From: Capsulimonas corticalis
GTDB lineage: Bacteria > Armatimonadota > Armatimonadia > Armatimonadales > Capsulimonadaceae
DNA length: 64,000 bases
Assembly: GCF_003574315.2 (NCBI RefSeq)
Contig: NZ_AP025739.1
Span: 3,224,001-3,288,000, forward strand
Direction: 5' to 3'
Of this stretch, positions 6,945 to 25,537 are shown one piece after another. The notes beneath the pieces are model-generated. The model was not told where the DNA came from. It worked only from the letters and a program-made list of their open reading frames with translations, and searched no databases. Numbering within the stretch: the first letter of the stretch is position 1; each line of letters begins with the position of its first letter. Made by a program: the position numbers and the translations under genes.

Positions 6945-7898
6945 ATGAAGCGACTGACTTTTGCCGGGAGAGCGTGTATGCTGCTGATAGCGGTTTGCCT
7001 CTCTTTCCCTGTTGCGTTCCGCGCCGTCGCACAGACGTCACATGGCGCACATCGTAATCTCGATCGCGCATTCCGTAATTCTGACTGGGATATAGCACGT
7101 CTGAAAAGGCTTCTCGCTCAGGGCGCGAATGTCGACGCCAAGGATGACGCTGGGCAGACGCGTCTGGACAGCGCAGTACGATTAGGACGAACTCGCGAAG
7201 TGCAATTCCTGCTCGACGCGGGAGCCGACGCCAATCATGCAAGTTACGAAGGAGCGCCGCTTGCGGCCGCTGTGGATAATCTATCCCAGCTTGCAAATCT
7301 TCCCTGTCAGCCCCATAGCACCCTCATCGCATTGTTTATCCAGCCGCCCCTCGCCGATCCGAAAGAGCGGGCAAAGATCTCGCAAGAGTTTTTGCAAAAG
7401 CGTGCGCGGCAACTTGCAGTGGCCGCGCAGCCCAAAATAGGCGACTATCTTCGGATCATACGCCTCCTGCTGTCACATCACGCCAACCCTAATGTCGCCG
7501 CTCTCGGGAGCGGACGCGTTTTAGGAGCTGCTGTGTCCTCAGGCAGTTTGGATTGCGTCCAAGTGCTGATTCACTATGGCTCCCGCGTAAATGCTGGGGA
7601 TGATAGGCAAATCACGCCGCTGATGTGCTGCGGAGGCAAATATGCGACAGAGATCGCTGCTTTACTAATAACACGCGGCGCAGTGGTCAACACCCACGAC
7701 CGGGATGGAGAGACACCGTTCTCTTGCGCTGTAAAGACGCGAGACGCAGCCCTCGTGCGCCTGCTTTTGCGCCATGGCGCAAACCCAAGTACACATACTC
7801 TGGATGGGACTACTCCACTTTCCTATGCCATTGAGACAAAGAACAATGAAGCCGCAGTCTTGATCCGCGCCGCACTCAAGTCGCCACGCCCCCATTAG
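6945..7898 (+). CDS. Secreted ankyrin-repeat protein
   Basis: 317 aa. The N-terminus is a signal peptide (KR, then a hydrophobic stretch LLIAVCLSFPVAF, ending AVAQ). The rest is a series of about six ankyrin repeats, visible as recurring blocks such as LLAQGANVDAKDDAGQTRL, LLDAGADANHASYEGAPL, LLSHHANPNVAALGSG, LITRGAVVNTHDRDGETPF and LLRHGANPSTHTLDGTTPL. Ankyrin repeats mediate protein binding; with a signal peptide this should act in the periplasm or outside. The ATG at 6945 is chosen because it gives the signal peptide. Codon use is less GC-rich than its neighbours, and a duplicated scrap of the SDR gene end lies on the far side, both hinting at insertion. Confidence 0.85.
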   Translation: MKRLTFAGRACMLLIAVCLSFPVAFRAVAQTSHGAHRNLDRAFRNSDWDIARLKRLLAQGANVDAKDDAGQTRLDSAVRLGRTREVQFLLDAGADANHASYEGAPLAAAVDNLSQLANLPCQPHSTLIALFIQPPLADPKERAKISQEFLQKRARQLAVAAQPKIGDYLRIIRLLLSHHANPNVAALGSGRVLGAAVSSGSLDCVQVLIHYGSRVNAGDDRQITPLMCCGGKYATEIAALLITRGAVVNTHDRDGETPFSCAVKTRDAALVRLLLRHGANPSTHTLDGTTPLSYAIETKNNEAAVLIRAALKSPRPH

Positions 7899-17946: not shown

Positions 17947-19479
17947 TCAATCGAGCTGCCGCTGAAGCGCCATCAGGGCGAAGCCGAGCAGCGCGACGCC
18001 GGCGAGCAGGGTGAAGGCGTCGAGACACGACAGCAGGAGGATCTGTCGTTCCAGCGCCTTCCCCATCAGCGCAAGCGCGGCGGCGTGCGCGTCGGCCGCC
18101 CCCAATCCATGCGCGATCAGCCCGTGACTGAGCGTCGAGATGCGCTGAGACACCGCCGCGCTGGAGGGATCGGCGTCGCCCGCCAGATCGAACCGATGGA
18201 CTGCCGCGCGGTGGTGGAGCATGACGGTCATCGCCGCCACCGCGAAGGTCTGGCACAATTGCCGAATGATATTCTTCAAACGGTATGCGTGGCTGTAAAA
18301 GTCCAGTTCAAACTCTTTGAACGCCAGGCCCGCGACGGGAAGCACGAGCATCGCCGCGAACAGGCTGCGCAGGAAGAGGGGGAGATAAAGACCGGACGCC
18401 GCGATCTGTGTCGAAAGACGCGACAGCATCCAGAAAGCCGCCGCCATGCTGAGCATGCCCGCGCACATAAGCAACTTGCGGCGGCGCAGGCGGCTGCTGA
18501 CGCCCAAATACACCATGACGCCCGCCATGGAGACGACGCCGGAAAAGAACAGCAGGCGGCCCATGAAGTCCACCGAATACAAAAGGACCTGCTCGCAAAA
18601 CACGGGAAACAGATACGAGAACGCGTAGGCGAGCAAATAGTAGATAAAGTAAAAGAGCAGCCCCCAGAGAAACTGCTTGTTGCGCAGGCCGGTCAGATGC
18701 AGGATTGGATCGGGGACGCGCAGCTGGTGGGTGACGAAGCCGACGATCGCCAGGATCGCGACCGCCAGCAGAAGCAGCAGATGCGGGGACTGCGTCAGAA
18801 ACTGGAATCGCACTCGCTGCATCACGATCTCCACGGAGACGATGCTGACGGCGAAGAGGGCGATCGGCCAGTAGTCGTAACGCACGCGGCGCTCGATCTG
18901 CTGCTCCGCCTTTTCGGCGCTCTCCGGCTCGGGGACCGTGAACCATACCAGCAGCGCGCAGGCGAGGATGATCGGGACGATGATCCAGAAGATCCAGTTC
19001 CACGTGCTCGCGTCGATCAAGCGCGTCGCGAGCAGCGGCGCTAGCGTCGATCCTCCGAATACCCCCGCCATAAAGAAGCGCAGCGCCTTGACGCGCTCTG
19101 GGCCGAGAAACGTAAATTGGATCAGGATGCGGCAGGAGGTGAACAGAGCGCCCGCCCCGGCGCCCTGGACAACGCGCCAGGCAATCAAGGTAATGACGGA
19201 ATGGGCGAAGCCGCAGCCGAGGCTCGCGGCGGCGTAAACGATCAGGGAAGCGGTGAGGTAGCGCCGGTATCCAAAGTGCTCCGTCAGATTTTGCTGAAGC
19301 AGAATCATCAGGATCGCGGCGGTGGCGTAGGCGGCCGTGACCCAGACAAACTCTTCCGGAGTCGCGCCGACGCCGCCCTGGACGTGCGCCGACGAGAGCA
19401 CGAGCATGGAGTTCTCCAGGAACTCAACGCCGGTCGTCAGACCCAGAGTGAGCATTAACAAGATACGTTTGGACAGCAA
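17947..19479 (-). CDS. DHA2-type MFS transporter, candidate lasso peptide exporter
   Basis: 510 aa with about 14 hydrophobic helices, the size and layout of DHA2 drug:H+ antiporters (EmrB/QacA type). The N-terminal half shows WVTAAYATAAILMILLQQNLTEHFGYRRYL (motif A region) and VVQGAGAGALFTSCRIL (motif C-like). It is the last gene of the lasso operon, 18 bases after the GNAT gene. Lasso clusters more often use an ABC exporter; no ABC transporter is present here, so this protein is the natural candidate for export or immunity, by context only. Confidence 0.85.
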   Translation of the reverse strand: MLSKRILLMLTLGLTTGVEFLENSMLVLSSAHVQGGVGATPEEFVWVTAAYATAAILMILLQQNLTEHFGYRRYLTASLIVYAAASLGCGFAHSVITLIAWRVVQGAGAGALFTSCRILIQFTFLGPERVKALRFFMAGVFGGSTLAPLLATRLIDASTWNWIFWIIVPIILACALLVWFTVPEPESAEKAEQQIERRVRYDYWPIALFAVSIVSVEIVMQRVRFQFLTQSPHLLLLLAVAILAIVGFVTHQLRVPDPILHLTGLRNKQFLWGLLFYFIYYLLAYAFSYLFPVFCEQVLLYSVDFMGRLLFFSGVVSMAGVMVYLGVSSRLRRRKLLMCAGMLSMAAAFWMLSRLSTQIAASGLYLPLFLRSLFAAMLVLPVAGLAFKEFELDFYSHAYRLKNIIRQLCQTFAVAAMTVMLHHRAAVHRFDLAGDADPSSAAVSQRISTLSHGLIAHGLGAADAHAAALALMGKALERQILLLSCLDAFTLLAGVALLGFALMALQRQLD

Positions 19480-19497: not shown

Positions 19498-20064
19498 TCA
19501 GGACGGCGCCAGCCGCTTTCGCATCCGTACAACCGGAAGCGTCAGGCCGTCCCGCATCGGGATTTCGAACCGCTCCGATTCGTGATACCCAAAAACTGCG
19601 TACAAAGGCTCGCCCGCGAGGGTGGCGACGATCTCGACGTCCCGGAAACCCGCCTGAAGGATCGCATCCTCGCAGGCCGACATAATCCGGCGTCCGATGC
19701 CGCGCCGGGCGAACTCCGGATGCACAAAGAAAGCTCGGACGCGCGCCGAGTCGCGAGTGGGGTCGAGCAGGGAATCGTCGTCGGGGTTCCTGCCGTCATC
19801 GCCGCCGAAGAGCGTCTTGCGCCGGCTCCATCCGCCGCATCCCACGATCCGCCCGGCTGCCTCCACGACAAAATAAGTCCCATCGGCAATCAACTGGCGG
19901 TCGACGCCGAAGATCGGCCCAAGCGCCGCCTCGATCTGTATGGGCGTATAATAGTCCGCCTGAAGCGCATGCGCGGAAAGAGGGATCAGCTCCGCGAGCG
20001 CGTCTGCATCGCCGAGGCGCGCGAGCCGAAGCGTTAGGGCAGGAAGCTTGGGATCGTCATTCAT
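19498..20064 (-). CDS. GNAT N-acetyltransferase in the lasso operon
   Basis: 188 aa with a complete GNAT fold: VVEAAGRIVGCGGW (beta-4), VRAFFVHPEFARRGIGRRIMSACED (motif A, acetyl-CoA pyrophosphate loop RRGIGR) and LYAVFGYHESERFEIP. It overlaps the nucleotidyltransferase stop by eight bases and precedes the MFS gene by 18, so it is in the lasso operon. It may acetylate the peptide (as tailoring or self-protection), or may be an unrelated passenger. The 17-residue core predicted here has no lysine, so any modification of it would have to be on a hydroxyl or on another substrate. Confidence 0.85.
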   Translation of the reverse strand: MNDDPKLPALTLRLARLGDADALAELIPLSAHALQADYYTPIQIEAALGPIFGVDRQLIADGTYFVVEAAGRIVGCGGWSRRKTLFGGDDGRNPDDDSLLDPTRDSARVRAFFVHPEFARRGIGRRIMSACEDAILQAGFRDVEIVATLAGEPLYAVFGYHESERFEIPMRDGLTLPVVRMRKRLAPS

Positions 20065-21268
20065 CGTTTAGTATCACTTGGGCGCTCTGTCGGTGAAACA
20101 ATGTGTGCAGCATGGAGGCGGCGTAGGTCTTTACAATGCGCAGTGGACGCGAAACGCCATAGAGCGGCCTTGGCAGGCGCATTGTCTCCACATCGGCTAG
20201 GGTGGGAGTGGTGAGCGCGAACCAGCAGTAGACACATCGCTCCCGCATCTTGTGGGCGCGAAGATTATAGAAAAACAGCTCGCCGACTTCCGGCTGCTTT
20301 TCCTCCACACATACGCGCCGACGAGCCTCCTCCGCCAGCGCATGCGCCACACGGTCGCGGCGCGCCATGGGCGCTAGCGCTTCAGGAATAGGGACTCCCG
20401 TCAGCGCTTCCGCGAGCAAAAGACCGACGAACACGATTCGCTCATTGCCGGAGTCGCGCGCGCGGGATGCGACAACCTCCCAATCTTCAACCATTGAGCC
20501 GCGCGCCATCGCGGACACCGCGCAGATCCACTCTAGACGCTCCCAAAGGTGTTTTACCCCATGCACGCAAAGATAGAGAAACTGATCTTCTGGACTGAGA
20601 GTGCGGACGGAGGATCCGGCGAGAGGAATGGGAGTCGCTCGGCCAATGATGTCCCGCACCTGCTTCTCGGATTGAAAACAAGGGTTGGTAAGCCGGTGGT
20701 GCAGCTCAACCCGGACGCCGGTTGCCGCCGAAGCGAAACAGAAGTTGTGGTAGGATCGCATGTGGATGTCGCTATCTGCCTCAGAGCCGCAGAATTCGTC
20801 CACATAACCGAGGCCGCGCAATACACGGGCGGCCCGTTCGATCTCGTCCGGAGACGTCAGCAGATCTAAATCGCCGAAACACCGCAATGCAATGCTGTCG
20901 TAGAGAGACTGCGCCAGCGCCGGTCCTTTGATCGCGACCGCCATTACCCCCTCGGCTTCCATCGCTTTCGCGATCCGAAGAAGCTCGGCCGTCATGTGCA
21001 GACTATGACGCCCTGCGCCGTGTGAGAGCTGAGCCAGACGCGCGATCACATCGGCGGGAACGCGTGCTGGCTGCGTTTCGCAAAGATGCTTGTGGAGAAG
21101 CGGAACAAGACCATGCTTCATCGCGAGCGAAACCGTGGAGGGCCAGTCGACAGGAGCGTCCAGCAGGCGCGCGAGACGCGTCTGCGCGGCGGCGTCCAAA
21201 TGAACTCGGCCGCAAACGGTGAGCAGTTCTCGTTCACGAAAAGCGGAGTTAAGTGGCGCAGACGTCAT
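20057..21268 (-). CDS. Lasso-cluster nucleotidyltransferase family protein
   Basis: 403 aa of the NTP_transf_5-like family found in many lasso peptide and other RiPP clusters. Diagnostic region near residues 110-150: VMAVAIKGPALAQSLYDSIALRCFGDLDLL, with the metal-binding DLDLL and following ERAARVLRGLGY. In kinase-containing lasso clusters such enzymes are thought to add further phosphate or nucleotide groups to the phosphorylated peptide. It overlaps the B2 peptidase by 20 bases upstream and the GNAT by eight downstream. The C-terminal LFFYNLRAHKMRERCVYCW segment has a Cys pair. Confidence 0.88.
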   Translation of the reverse strand: MTSAPLNSAFRERELLTVCGRVHLDAAAQTRLARLLDAPVDWPSTVSLAMKHGLVPLLHKHLCETQPARVPADVIARLAQLSHGAGRHSLHMTAELLRIAKAMEAEGVMAVAIKGPALAQSLYDSIALRCFGDLDLLTSPDEIERAARVLRGLGYVDEFCGSEADSDIHMRSYHNFCFASAATGVRVELHHRLTNPCFQSEKQVRDIIGRATPIPLAGSSVRTLSPEDQFLYLCVHGVKHLWERLEWICAVSAMARGSMVEDWEVVASRARDSGNERIVFVGLLLAEALTGVPIPEALAPMARRDRVAHALAEEARRRVCVEEKQPEVGELFFYNLRAHKMRERCVYCWFALTTPTLADVETMRLPRPLYGVSRPLRIVKTYAASMLHTLFHRQSAQVILNDE

Positions 21269-21728
21269 TCTCGACCTTCATCAATAGCTGAAAACTTCCC
21301 GGTCCGGCAGAGGTCATGCAGCGTCCATCCGGCGTTTCCACCCAGGCGTGCGCGAGAAACTCGCCATTCTCGGCTTTCGCCACGCCGATTTTGAGGGACG
21401 CTGGGTTTCCGAGTCTTTTGATAAGGACAAATGTCGCCAGCGACTGAGTTAGGCACGTCGCGGCAGGCACATACCGCGCCATGGATCCAACCGCGCGCGC
21501 GCAGACCAGGCAATCACGGTTACTGGCCGCCGAAGCGTTGCGTGCTGGATGGACGCGACGCTCGATCCATCGGAGCACCCATGGGAACGGCGCCGTCCAA
21601 AGAGCGATCCGAATGACAGCCAGGAGCGCTAGGGCGCGCAGATAGACGCCTTGATCCCGTATGCTCAGCGATCGCCACTTCGCGCCGTGGCGACGAAGTA
21701 TGGCGAGGCGATTAGTACGAAGCGTCAT
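21249..21728 (-). CDS. Lasso peptide leader peptidase (B2 protein)
   Basis: 159 aa, transglutaminase-like cysteine protease that removes the leader peptide. The catalytic Cys is in VPAATCLTQSLA, His in FLAHAWVE, followed by TPDGRCM with the candidate Asp. An N-terminal helix-rich segment (ALALLAVIRIALWTAPF) precedes the domain, as usual. ATG 21728 (MTLRTNRLAIL) is chosen: the frame is open to 21848, but the extra 40 residues lie across the B1 gene and look non-coding. Overlaps the B1 stop by 17 bases and the nucleotidyltransferase start by 20. Confidence 0.92.
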   Translation of the reverse strand: MTLRTNRLAILRRHGAKWRSLSIRDQGVYLRALALLAVIRIALWTAPFPWVLRWIERRVHPARNASAASNRDCLVCARAVGSMARYVPAATCLTQSLATFVLIKRLGNPASLKIGVAKAENGEFLAHAWVETPDGRCMTSAGPGSFQLLMKVENDVCAT

Positions 21729-21999
21729 GGGTGATGACCACCAGATCGTGCCGCTCCAGATCCGCCAGCAGCACCGCGAGATCCGCCTGCGCTCGCTCCG
21801 GTTCGACATCGTACTCGCCGATAATATTTTGCCGCAGATCGCTGACATGGATTGGGTTTTGAACCCACTCCCAGATGCGCGCGCCGATTGGATTGAGGCC
21901 GTAATACGTGCTGTTCTTCAAATTGAGGATTGCCATGTCGCCCTGCAAATCGCAGGAGACCTGTTCTTTGCTTGCGGTGATAGTGGCGTTGTCGTCCAT
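21712..21999 (-). CDS. Lasso peptide RRE protein (B1, PqqD-like)
   Basis: 95-aa winged-helix RiPP recognition element that binds the precursor leader and delivers it to the B2 peptidase. PqqD/B1 pattern: MAILNLKNSTYYGLNPIGARIWEWVQNP, then LRQNIIGEYDVEPERAQADLAVLLADLERHDLV. ATG 21999 is preferred (GGGAG five bases upstream); an ATG at 22014 overlapping the kinase stop is also possible. It sits between the kinase and B2 genes. Confidence 0.93.
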   Translation of the reverse strand: MDDNATITASKEQVSCDLQGDMAILNLKNSTYYGLNPIGARIWEWVQNPIHVSDLRQNIIGEYDVEPERAQADLAVLLADLERHDLVVITHDASY

Positions 22000-22010
22000 A
22001 GATGCTCCCT

Positions 22011-22955
22011 TCATCGAACTATTCCAGCGTTTGCTTCCCCGCAGTCGCTTTCGACGAGCGCCGCGACCTCATGCAGCGCCTGGAAATCCAGCGGCCGCTT
22101 CAGACGCCGAATGTGCGCCTCAGCGGTTAGAGCGGCGCATTGACGCATATGCGTCGTCTTATTCTCCTGCGATACCAGCATCCCCACCGCATAAGTATGC
22201 CGGATGATCTCCACGACCGCATGTTGACGTTCCAGACATTCGATCTCAGGCCAGTCGCCTTGCGCGAGGATATAAATGCGTTCCAATCTTAAAGAACTGC
22301 GGCCCGCGCCTTCCGCGACGGGGAAGCCGTACTTCGGATGTGTGGCGTGTACTTTATTCAGCTGGGCTGTATTATGTCCCAGAGCGGCGGCGGAATCGGG
22401 AGTGAGTTTTAGTCGCGGAAAGCCGGACTGGACGGTCGGCCGCGCCGGATCGGCGAGGCAGACCGCCACGATATCGTCGGCGACCACTGTATGTCCGCGC
22501 GCTTGCAGCGCGGCGGTCATTGTGGATTTTCCGGCGCCGGCGGCGCCTAAAAAGGCGACGACGCTTCCATTCACAACTGCCGCGCTCGCGTGCAATGTCA
22601 GGAAACCCCGTTGATGCAGCAGAGCGCCCAGAGCAACGCCGAGAACAAAAAGACGCAGGACGCTATTATCGACGCCGGACTCTCCCTCCACTAAGATTTC
22701 TCGGCCGCCACGGATACAAATTCGGCACGCTCCTTCGAAAGAAAGCCACACGGCGTCGCCATACATCCAGTGCCCCTCGCGGATATCGCTGGCGTTGCTG
22801 GGAATCGCAGGAAGACTTTCTACTCGAATTGCTACATCAGCCGTTTCAAACTCTGCCGACGAGAGAGGAGTAAGTTCCGGCAAAGGCAGCGTCGAGTCGA
22901 TTGTGAGGCCGTAGGCGACATATCGATATCGTGTGGCTGGAAGAGCGAGAATCAT
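22011..22955 (-). CDS. HprK-like kinase, predicted lasso peptide tailoring kinase
   Basis: 314 aa. HPr-kinase/phosphorylase-like C-terminal domain: TLHASAAVVNGSVVAFL leads into the P-loop GAAGAGKST at residues 137-145, followed by VVADDIVAV (metal-binding acidic pair) and SGFPRLKLTPDS. The N-terminal about 120 residues form the usual accessory beta domain (YVAYGLTIDSTLPLPEL). Relatives in lasso clusters (paeninodin type) phosphorylate the C-terminal Ser of the peptide. Here the predicted core ends in Ile just before Ser56 of the precursor, so the acceptor is not obvious (core Ser44 or Ser51, or Ser56 if processing differs). It starts 16 bases after the precursor stop. Confidence 0.9.
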   Translation of the reverse strand: MILALPATRYRYVAYGLTIDSTLPLPELTPLSSAEFETADVAIRVESLPAIPSNASDIREGHWMYGDAVWLSFEGACRICIRGGREILVEGESGVDNSVLRLFVLGVALGALLHQRGFLTLHASAAVVNGSVVAFLGAAGAGKSTMTAALQARGHTVVADDIVAVCLADPARPTVQSGFPRLKLTPDSAAALGHNTAQLNKVHATHPKYGFPVAEGAGRSSLRLERIYILAQGDWPEIECLERQHAVVEIIRHTYAVGMLVSQENKTTHMRQCAALTAEAHIRRLKRPLDFQALHEVAALVESDCGEANAGIVR

Positions 22956-22971
22956 CGATAGCGCCTCATGA

Positions 22972-23451
22972 TCACTGGATCATCTTCCGCTTCAGCATGT
23001 CAATCTCTCGGCGCAGTTCGCCGATTTGTTCGTCACGCTGCTGCACCAGATCGTAAAGCGCCTGGATCGCCGCGATCGTCACTCCGTTCGCGTCGACCAT
23101 ATTGATATGCTTATCGTTTTCGCCGACACCGAACGCCGCCGCGAAGTCCTGGGCCATCGGGCCGATATGACGGATCGCGGGGTTTTGGAAGTGATAGCTC
23201 CACGACGCCACGGGGATAGAAACCAGACGCGCCAGAACATCGTGTGCGTCAACAGTCGCGAAGTCCTGCTTCATGGATCGGTCGCTAATGATGACTTGAC
23301 TTCCAATAATTCCATCGCCAGAGTTTGGTCCAATAAATTCAGTGATATTGGCAATGGTTCCATGGACGGTCAGCTCCGGCGTTTCGTACGCCTTCTTCGC
23401 GGGTTCCTGATCCTCAGCGCGGCTCGTGAAATCTTGCGGGGTGTCGGTCAT
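22972..23451 (-). CDS. Lasso-type precursor fused to a peptidase S74 chaperone domain
   Basis: 159 aa in three parts. Residues 1-38: lasso-family leader with KKAYETPELTVHG, matching Y22-x2-P25-x-L27-x3-G31-x5-T37 at every position. Residues 39-55: candidate core. If Thr is at -2 as usual, the core begins at F39, and D46, its only acidic residue, is at position 8, suitable for an 8-membered macrolactam ring. Residues 56-159: full-length peptidase S74 (endosialidase-type intramolecular chaperone) domain, with SDRSMK (Ser56 and Lys61, five apart as in the S911/K916 dyad of phage endosialidase), IRHIGPMAQDFAAAFG, GVTIAAIQALYDLV and a C-terminal coiled-coil helix. S74 domains trimerise and self-cleave just before the Ser. 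AAAGGAG precedes the ATG. It lies between cyclase and kinase genes. The lasso assignment rests on leader plus neighbours; maturation is inferred. Confidence 0.88.
   Translation of the reverse strand: MTDTPQDFTSRAEDQEPAKKAYETPELTVHGTIANITEFIGPNSGDGIIGSQVIISDRSMKQDFATVDAHDVLARLVSIPVASWSYHFQNPAIRHIGPMAQDFAAAFGVGENDKHINMVDANGVTIAAIQALYDLVQQRDEQIGELRREIDMLKRKMIQ
23287..23337 (-). other. Predicted lasso core peptide region
   Basis: Codons 39-55 of the precursor, FIGPNSGDGIIGSQVII. Start set by Thr at -2 (T37), end set by the S74 cleavage point before Ser56. The ring would be Phe1 amine to Asp8 side chain, with a nine-residue tail containing no large plug other than Gln/Val/Ile. Seventeen residues is a normal lasso length. 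All three boundaries (leader cut, ring residue, S74 cut) are predictions. Confidence 0.6.
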
Positions 23452-23553: not shown

Positions 23554-25440
23554 TTACGTCATCTTTTGCAGCCATAGGGCAAGAAGAGACGCCTTGAGCG
23601 GAAGCTCGGCGTCCTCCCACGACGGCTGAATCGCGAAGCGATCCAAGCTGGAGCGAATGGAACTCATGTTGACGTATTGCGAAAGCGAATTTCCGTCGCT
23701 TGCTAACATCGCTTCGATACGCTGTATATCGAAAGCCGCGAAAGTATGAAGGAAGTTATGTCCCAAATCGGATTTTCCGCCCCTCCATTGAATTTGTTCG
23801 GGTAAGACGCCCGTCATTGCCTTTCGCATGATCCAGCGCGTCCAACCATCGCGAAGTTTTTGATCCGGCGGGACTCCCAGACAGAATTCCACCAGCCGGC
23901 GATCGAAAAACGGATAGCGTACTTCGAGAGAGAAGGCGGCGGACGCATGGTCGGTGATCTCCAGCACATGCGGAACAATCCCCCTCGACATTCGGTAGTG
24001 ATGACTTTCTTTTTCCGTGAGGCAGGGGCGCCGGCCAACGCCCAGCAGCACGTTCGACCGCTCATGAAAACGAGTGCGAGTTTGAAAGTCAGCGTTCAAA
24101 CAGGCCGAAAGGACGCTGGCGGGCGGCTGTCGCCGACGGGCGGCTTTCCATACGCCGAGCATGGCTTTGGGGACGAATGGGTAAACCGCCTGGGTCGCAA
24201 TGAGAGTTCGAGTGGAGCCGTTGAGATTGCGCGCCACCCCCTTCGCCTCCCTCAGCAGGGTCGGCCAGCGCATTGCGCGCGCGAGTTCGGTCAGGCGGGA
24301 GACGCCGTGAGAGACTGTTGTATCGCCGTCAAGACCGTCGAGAAGCACGCCGACCCCAGCCGTTTTCGCGGCTGCGTACATTGCCCAGTGCAAAAATAGA
24401 TTGGGACCAGTAAAAGGCTGGTCTTGAGCGCTGAGCATCTGGTCGATATTTGAAAAAGGGCCGATCCGGTCTCCATGGACTTTGTGCGGCTCCATGCCTC
24501 CCATATCCAGAGCCGCACGCATATAGTCGCGTTCATCGGACTTAGGCACGTCGTCAAAAACGACGGAAAATGTCTGGAGGGGCTCCCGCCCATCCTTTTG
24601 CAGGTATTGTGAGGCGGCGCAGGCGATGGACGACGAATCGAGGCCGCCGCTGAGCGTGGAGCCAAGCGGAGTATTTGCGCGGGATCGGGAATGGACTGCT
24701 TGGAGGAAGATGGAGCGAAATGCTTCGGCGTACTCGGCGTCTGATGATAGCCGGATGTCCTGAGCGGCTTCCACGGACCAGTAGGGCTGCATCGAGATCT
24801 CGCCGTCACGCACCATCATGCTGTGCGCTGGCGGCAGCTTGAAAATCCGCTGATAGAACGTATGCTGCAAATCTTCCGCGTAACCCGCCAGATACTCTAA
24901 GACGCGGTCTTCATTGACGAGGCGCTGCGCCTCCGGCATTGCCAGCAGGCCCTTAATCTCCGAGGCGAATAGGAAAAGATCGTGATGTTTGTAATAGTAA
25001 AATGGCCGAACGCCAAAGTGATCTCTGGCGCAGAATAATGTCTTGTCGCTTCGGTCCCAGATAGCAAACGCGAAATCTCCGAGAAGCTTCTCAGGGCATT
25101 GTGGTCCCCACTTTTCATAGGAGGCAAGGATGATCTGGCCGTCGGTAATTGGATCTGGGGATCGCTGGGGAATTTGCAGACGCGCGATGAGTTCGTCTCG
25201 GTTGTCCAGTCGGGCGTCGGCGGTCATTACTCGGTCGTTCGCGGCGTCACGAAGGGGCGCCTGCTCGAAGTGCGATTCGCGCGTCGTTCTCAGAAGACTG
25301 CTTCCGAATGCGGCTGAGCCGTCCACCCAGCAGTTAACAGGGCTCGAGCCGCGATGCGCAAGCGCCTCCATCATTTGCTCAAGCCCATGCGGCGGAGCCG
25401 GTCGATCGTCTGCAAGCAAAATACCCGCAATAGCGCTCAA
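23554..25440 (-). CDS. Lasso cyclase (asparagine synthetase-like, C protein)
   Basis: 628 aa. Asparagine synthetase B-like: an N-terminal glutaminase-like domain (about 1-210, MSAIAGILLADDRP, HRGSSPVNCW, DGQIILASYEKWG, LLGDFAFAIWD, RDHFGVRPFYY) and a C-terminal ATP-pyrophosphatase domain with the PP-loop SGGLDSSS near 265-272. Start is TTG 25438-25440 with GGAGAG eight bases upstream. This gives M-S-A-I-A-G, so the catalytic Cys2 of true glutaminases is replaced by Ser, as in lasso cyclases, which adenylate the ring Asp/Glu instead of making Asn. First gene of the lasso operon, 102 bp before the precursor. Confidence 0.92.
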   Translation of the reverse strand: MSAIAGILLADDRPAPPHGLEQMMEALAHRGSSPVNCWVDGSAAFGSSLLRTTRESHFEQAPLRDAANDRVMTADARLDNRDELIARLQIPQRSPDPITDGQIILASYEKWGPQCPEKLLGDFAFAIWDRSDKTLFCARDHFGVRPFYYYKHHDLFLFASEIKGLLAMPEAQRLVNEDRVLEYLAGYAEDLQHTFYQRIFKLPPAHSMMVRDGEISMQPYWSVEAAQDIRLSSDAEYAEAFRSIFLQAVHSRSRANTPLGSTLSGGLDSSSIACAASQYLQKDGREPLQTFSVVFDDVPKSDERDYMRAALDMGGMEPHKVHGDRIGPFSNIDQMLSAQDQPFTGPNLFLHWAMYAAAKTAGVGVLLDGLDGDTTVSHGVSRLTELARAMRWPTLLREAKGVARNLNGSTRTLIATQAVYPFVPKAMLGVWKAARRRQPPASVLSACLNADFQTRTRFHERSNVLLGVGRRPCLTEKESHHYRMSRGIVPHVLEITDHASAAFSLEVRYPFFDRRLVEFCLGVPPDQKLRDGWTRWIMRKAMTGVLPEQIQWRGGKSDLGHNFLHTFAAFDIQRIEAMLASDGNSLSQYVNMSSIRSSLDRFAIQPSWEDAELPLKASLLALWLQKMT

Positions 25441-25537
25441 ATCTGATGCTCTCCAAACGATTACTGGGCAGACTTCGACTGTAAAGCGAAGTCTACCCAG
25501 CAAATGGCTCTTCGAAGCATGACAAAATTTTTGGCGG

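Follow-up and report, generated by a model that had tools for sequence, protein, structure and literature searches.

A lasso peptide precursor joined to a C-terminal peptidase S74 domain in Capsulimonas corticalis and in Proteobacteria

Introduction

In the usual description, a lasso peptide precursor has a short leader and, at its C-terminus, the core; ending at the core is not mechanistically required. The closest known relatives of the locus studied here are the split-B lasso clusters that carry an HprK-like kinase and a nucleotidyltransferase, together with the plain sister precursors L115-L119. These share the cyclase (C), kinase, B1 and B2 gene set of our locus, and their precursors have the same leader motif with Thr at position -2, the same Asp at ring position 8 and the same core length. 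They differ in that their precursors are plain: within the searchable literature, no natural one is known with a folded domain after the core.

Peptidase S74 domains (PF13884) are found in phage endosialidases, the GA-1 neck appendage, the T5 fibre chaperone and the intramolecular chaperone (ICA) domain of MyRF. They are C-terminal to their client, which in known S74 systems is a trimeric β-helix, and they begin with the motif SDxxxK. MyRF is cut before Ser587, and either S587A or K592A abolishes cutting; a C-terminal coiled coil drives trimer formation, without which cutting does not occur (PMC8326128). Proteins have also been placed on the C-terminus of lasso peptides (astexin-1, pandonodin), in man-made fusions that do not cut themselves, and lasso enzymes tolerate proteins fused to some cores, for example that of astexin-1 (PMC13352647). 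Our search, mostly of literature open without subscription, found no relevant paper joining lasso peptides or other RiPPs with S74, endosialidase, tail fibre or intramolecular chaperone domains.

Results

The window analysed is a 64,000-nucleotide stretch of the Capsulimonas corticalis genome. Its precursor gene (22972..23451, minus strand) encodes a 159-residue protein and has a good ribosome-binding site, AAAGGAG, just upstream of the ATG. Residues 1-38 form the leader (23338..23451, minus strand), in which the motif YETPELTVHGTIANIT (residues 22-37) fits the lasso rule YxxPxLxxxGxxxxxT with Thr at -2. The NCBIfam leader model NF033528 matches with E = 1.6e-7 (31.2 bits; cut-off 33), and a second model with E = 0.005. 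The T-at-(-2) rule places the predicted core, FIGPNSGDGIIGSQVII, at residues 39-55 (23287..23337, minus strand), with a predicted ring from F39 to D46; D46, at core position 8 and thus within the expected 7-9, is the only acidic residue of the 17. The protein does not end with the core, and 104 residues of S74 domain follow (residues 56-159; 22975..23286, minus strand). Pfam Peptidase_S74 matches residues 56-107 with E = 2.3e-9 and 37.8 bits (cut-off 22), and no shuffle of the window reproduced the combined leader and S74 DNA pattern. The original prediction for this DNA had named Y22, P25, L27, G31 and T37 in the leader, a single acidic residue at ring position 8, and an S74 domain with S56 and K61; every one of these residues is in place. 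At the level of sequence, the gene is thus confirmed to join a lasso precursor and an S74 domain.

Core codons in the window (23287-23337) are AT-rich, with a GC3 of 0.24 versus 0.68 in the leader and 0.74 in the S74 part (p about 5e-5, simple binomial). The six further fused genes described below did not show this bias, which may mark a recently exchanged core.

The AlphaFold model has leader and core disordered and becomes confident at about residue 54; the alignment used as input left out five plasmid rows. The PDB was searched with profiles, a sequence search with the single window protein being uninformative. The best structural match of the model is the MyRF ICA domain (7dc3; Z 8.6, rmsd 2.6 Å over 110 aligned residues). 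The top matches are 7dc3, 4uw8, 3gw6 and 3gud, and the T5 fibre, K1F endosialidase and GA-1 chaperones are among the folds recovered. S56 (23284-23286, minus strand) and K61 (23269-23271, minus strand), a Lys five residues past the Ser at the domain start, align in profiles with the catalytic positions of MyRF and GA-1, and the GA-1 structure starts at the Ser equivalent to S56. Because these two residues are conserved across S74 domains generally, their presence alone does not prove that they are used here. The C-terminal helix, residues 118-158, has a heptad pattern (p about 0.001 in shuffles) that predicts a coiled coil, through which the window's S74 domain would likely form a trimer. The window protein is therefore predicted to match both the fold and the coiled coil of the phage and MyRF domains, and its would-be client is a short disordered peptide instead of a β-helix.

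The precursor lies in a one-strand array in the order cyclase, precursor, HprK-like kinase, RRE (B1), B2, nucleotidyltransferase, GNAT and MFS, all on the minus strand. The cyclase (23554..25440; NF033535 E 5e-225, 749 bits against a cut-off of 525) probably starts at TTG 25440 and not at 25503, where its reading frame has its first start codon. The kinase (22011..22955) matches PF07475 below the cut-off (E 2e-6), and the PqqD-type RRE (21712..22014) matches PF05402 (E 7e-15). The B2 leader peptidase matches NF033537 (E 2e-21, 76.8 bits against a cut-off of 33) and PF13471, and its true start probably lies inside the open reading frame 21249..21848. These matches bear out the cyclase, RRE, leader peptidase and kinase neighbours that had been claimed. 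The NTP_transf_5 nucleotidyltransferase (20057..21268; PF14907 E 2e-60) completes the set known from split-B clusters. The operon extends further, into an acetyltransferase gene overlapping that of the nucleotidyltransferase (19498-20064; GNAT, PF13508 E 2e-10) and a transporter gene (17947-19479; MFS, PF07690 E 1e-36). A tailoring or immunity role is possible for the former, the core offering no Lys as a target, and the latter is a possible exporter.

The cyclase closest to that of the window, at 37% identity, belongs to an archaeal lasso cluster on a Halopiger plasmid (L047), which also has RRE, B2, kinase and nucleotidyltransferase homologues and an unannotated 53-residue reading frame (6964-7125, plus strand) that fits the leader motif. 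Two related clusters of the window's own phylum (L052, L055) have plain, long-cored precursors.

Six more leader-core-S74 proteins, all from Proteobacteria and most within lasso clusters, were recovered by a DNA-pattern scan and profile searches. A degenerate pattern combining leader and S74 start matched seven stretches in 84,980 species genomes, two of which are real fusions with a lasso cyclase gene next to them, one in Ramlibacter albus and one in a Methylocystaceae MAG; the other five are chance matches, as is one on a viral contig (L070). Profile searches added a second fusion from the genus of R. albus and three from a single alphaproteobacterial family, probably Sphingomonadaceae. The fusion was found in 2 of 60 genomes of the R. 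albus genus; a sample of 385 genomes from the class gave 3, and one of 299 from the family likewise 3, counts that may be low as the initial search filter may have missed some. Among 291 genomes of the window's phylum, the window's own was the only one in which the fused gene was seen. The window protein had no match in a tblastn-type scan of the 84,980 species genomes, the plasmid and phage collections yielded ordinary S74 proteins only, among those examined, and a Burkholderia candidate (H78) proved to be an ordinary protein of 394 residues. The genome search that the original prediction had proposed as a check thus returned the architecture in six further genomes, with a variable core between conserved flanks.

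Some of these loci have features of their own. One fused gene (L111, 9782-10174, plus strand) adjoins a sodium:solute-symporter-like gene, and no lasso genes were seen in the 10 kb or so around it; the plain lasso cluster of this genome (L123, genome G941) is at a distance of 200 kb. In two clusters, the gene after the fused precursor encodes a PRMT-like methyltransferase (L110, 9831-10961, plus strand; L106, 13922-15127, plus strand), which suggests further modification of the peptide. Another fused core, SATGCGMDDNVSCDVGGGMGPKP (L104, 2039-2449, minus strand), contains two Cys and may give a disulfide-bearing lasso. Outside the set, a 155-residue S74 protein (L201, 8870-9337, plus strand) has a leader-like N-terminus, DLNDAELLGFEHIETA...GPVII|SDRRLK; it has no lasso motif and no lasso genes were seen nearby, and it is possibly another peptide with an S74 follower.

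All seven fused precursors keep the leader Tyr, Pro, Leu, Gly and Thr, Asp at core position 8, and the Ser, Asp and Lys of an S-D-x-x-x-K start, and in each the Pfam S74 match begins exactly at the Ser and exceeds the cut-off (26-35 bits in the six relatives). No fused precursor that had lost the Ser-Lys pair, which the prediction had named as refuting, was found among the seven. Acidic residues other than Asp8 make up 3% of the fused cores. Residue 1 of the core is Phe in the window and Gly or Ser in the others, and the core tails vary in both sequence and length. Among the proteobacterial fused precursors, mean identity is 30% in the core tails, 55% in the leader and 57% in the S74 domain; such variation in the tail is what a product segment between working parts would be expected to show.

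A cyclase search of the alphaproteobacterial family uncovered five clusters with plain precursors whose leaders closely resemble the fused ones (YVRPELTVFGSVRNLT versus YVRPALTVFGSVRNLT in fused L110). Their cores, such as GSSGDLGDGNVAKRGPK, reach a stop codon where the fused ones run on into SD...K. Asp8 is present in all six sister plain precursors, and the ring motif GSxGxxxD is common to fused and plain forms. No difference in core length was detected (14-25 residues fused versus 15-24 plain; p 0.94, n = 7 and 6). The Methylocystaceae locus (L106) has both forms in tandem, a plain precursor with core GSGGTMVDGNMVNKR and a fused one with core GRAGSGTDFSMMTRRG.

Rows with fused and with plain precursors are intermixed in the cyclase tree, with at least five changes, and the AU test rejects a single clade both for all five fused rows (p 6e-49) and for the fused rows within Proteobacteria (p 0.0017). 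A tree of the S74 domains groups that of the window with long ones from its own phylum; it is 58% identical to the domain of an otherwise unrelated large protein (L007). The six proteobacterial domains fall in a separate, well-supported group of short proteobacterial S74 domains, and a common clade of fused domains is rejected (p 0.003, on only 109 columns). Since both trees reject a single fused clade, the fusion probably arose at least twice. The proteobacterial domains could reflect one origin with losses, or exchange between precursors.

The six proteobacterial domains stop about 75 residues past the Ser and have no coiled-coil helix. A model of this short form again has 7dc3 as its best match, at a weak Z of 4.4. 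With no coiled coil and so weak a fold match, cutting by the short form is in doubt and its trimer formation doubtful.

Discussion

The joining of lasso leader, core and S74 domain in one protein, its recurrence, and the conservation of the ring Asp and the Ser/Lys pair are established here, and the fold of the window's S74 domain is indicated by structure prediction. That the pairing recurs in six other genomes and seems to have arisen at least twice suggests that the S74 domain helps in making the peptide, probably by setting its end. We regard it as probable that the C-terminal S74 domain of this lasso precursor is a follower that removes itself, cutting before Ser56 and so fixing the lasso C-terminus. 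The S74 domain would fold, and its Ser56/Lys61 dyad would cut the Ile55-Ser56 bond, so that leader and core remain as a chain with a defined end. The leader would be bound by B1 and residues 1-38 removed by B2, and the cyclase would link the Phe39 amine to Asp46; the resulting 17-residue lasso peptide may be tailored further by the kinase. Because engineered C-terminal fusions can still mature (PMC13352647), cutting before and cutting after cyclisation are both conceivable. The original prediction had proposed that the S74 cut defines the C-terminus, and comparison backs it: plain sisters stop where the S74 domain starts in their fused relatives, and Ser-Asp...Lys is kept throughout. Of the indirect evidence that the core ends where the S74 domain starts, these sisters, with the tandem and co-resident pairs, are the strongest part.

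The engineered fusions, astexin-1 among them, that still form lassos (PMC13352647) also lend themselves to a different reading, in which the ring closes around the tail while the S74 domain is cut late or never and serves as a display or export handle on a lasso-capped oligomeric protein. The short S74 domains, which have no counterpart of the helix needed for MyRF cutting, and the Gly-rich, linker-like tails of L111 and L113 agree with such a handle. A handle, however, would need neither an invariant Ser, Asp and Lys nor a start at the end of a core of lasso-typical length, precisely where plain sisters stop, and we consider this reading unlikely. More improbable still is that leader and pseudo-core merely dock an S74 protein onto B1 and yield no lasso. 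Plain precursors do accompany fused ones in two genomes (L106, and G941 with L123 and L111), and L111 is an orphan; but Asp8 is invariant amid cores otherwise poor in acids, the ring motif GSxGxxxD is common to plain sisters, and in L110 and L113 the leader motif finds the fused gene as the sole precursor. S74 domains are common in phages, so that an accidental fusion of a lasso gene to a phage tail gene, real or introduced during assembly, also has to be weighed. Recurrence contradicts it: the fusion is present in seven genomes, its frames are intact and the leader-to-Asp8 spacing is conserved. The window, moreover, sits in a 7.65-Mb single-contig genome in which no other S74 gene was detected, and we give this explanation almost no weight.

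If the S74 domain is a self-removing follower, the most likely benefit to the cell would be a fixed tail length and a tail that stays protected while the domain folds. The pre-folding or protection of the core and the delay of export raised in the original prediction are guesses. The domain could also act as a folding sensor, three precursors per trimer being cut only once each tail is correctly in the cutting hole, which would couple cutting to threading; we think this distinctly unlikely. Were it true, a self-excising follower domain would have been recruited at least twice for RiPP maturation. Clusters without any S74 domain exist, so enzymes of this family do not generally need one.

A phage-type autoprotease at the end of the core, on different cyclase lineages and drawn from different S74 subfamilies, points to selection. 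Such genes tend to be missed by filters for short precursors, or when the S74 domain leads to the name 'tail fiber domain-containing protein'. Where a plain and a fused precursor stand in tandem within one cluster, the role of the domain can be tested directly. The fused precursors would represent a natural means of fixing the C-terminus of a peptide, and would serve lasso production as a tagless-release device of natural origin.
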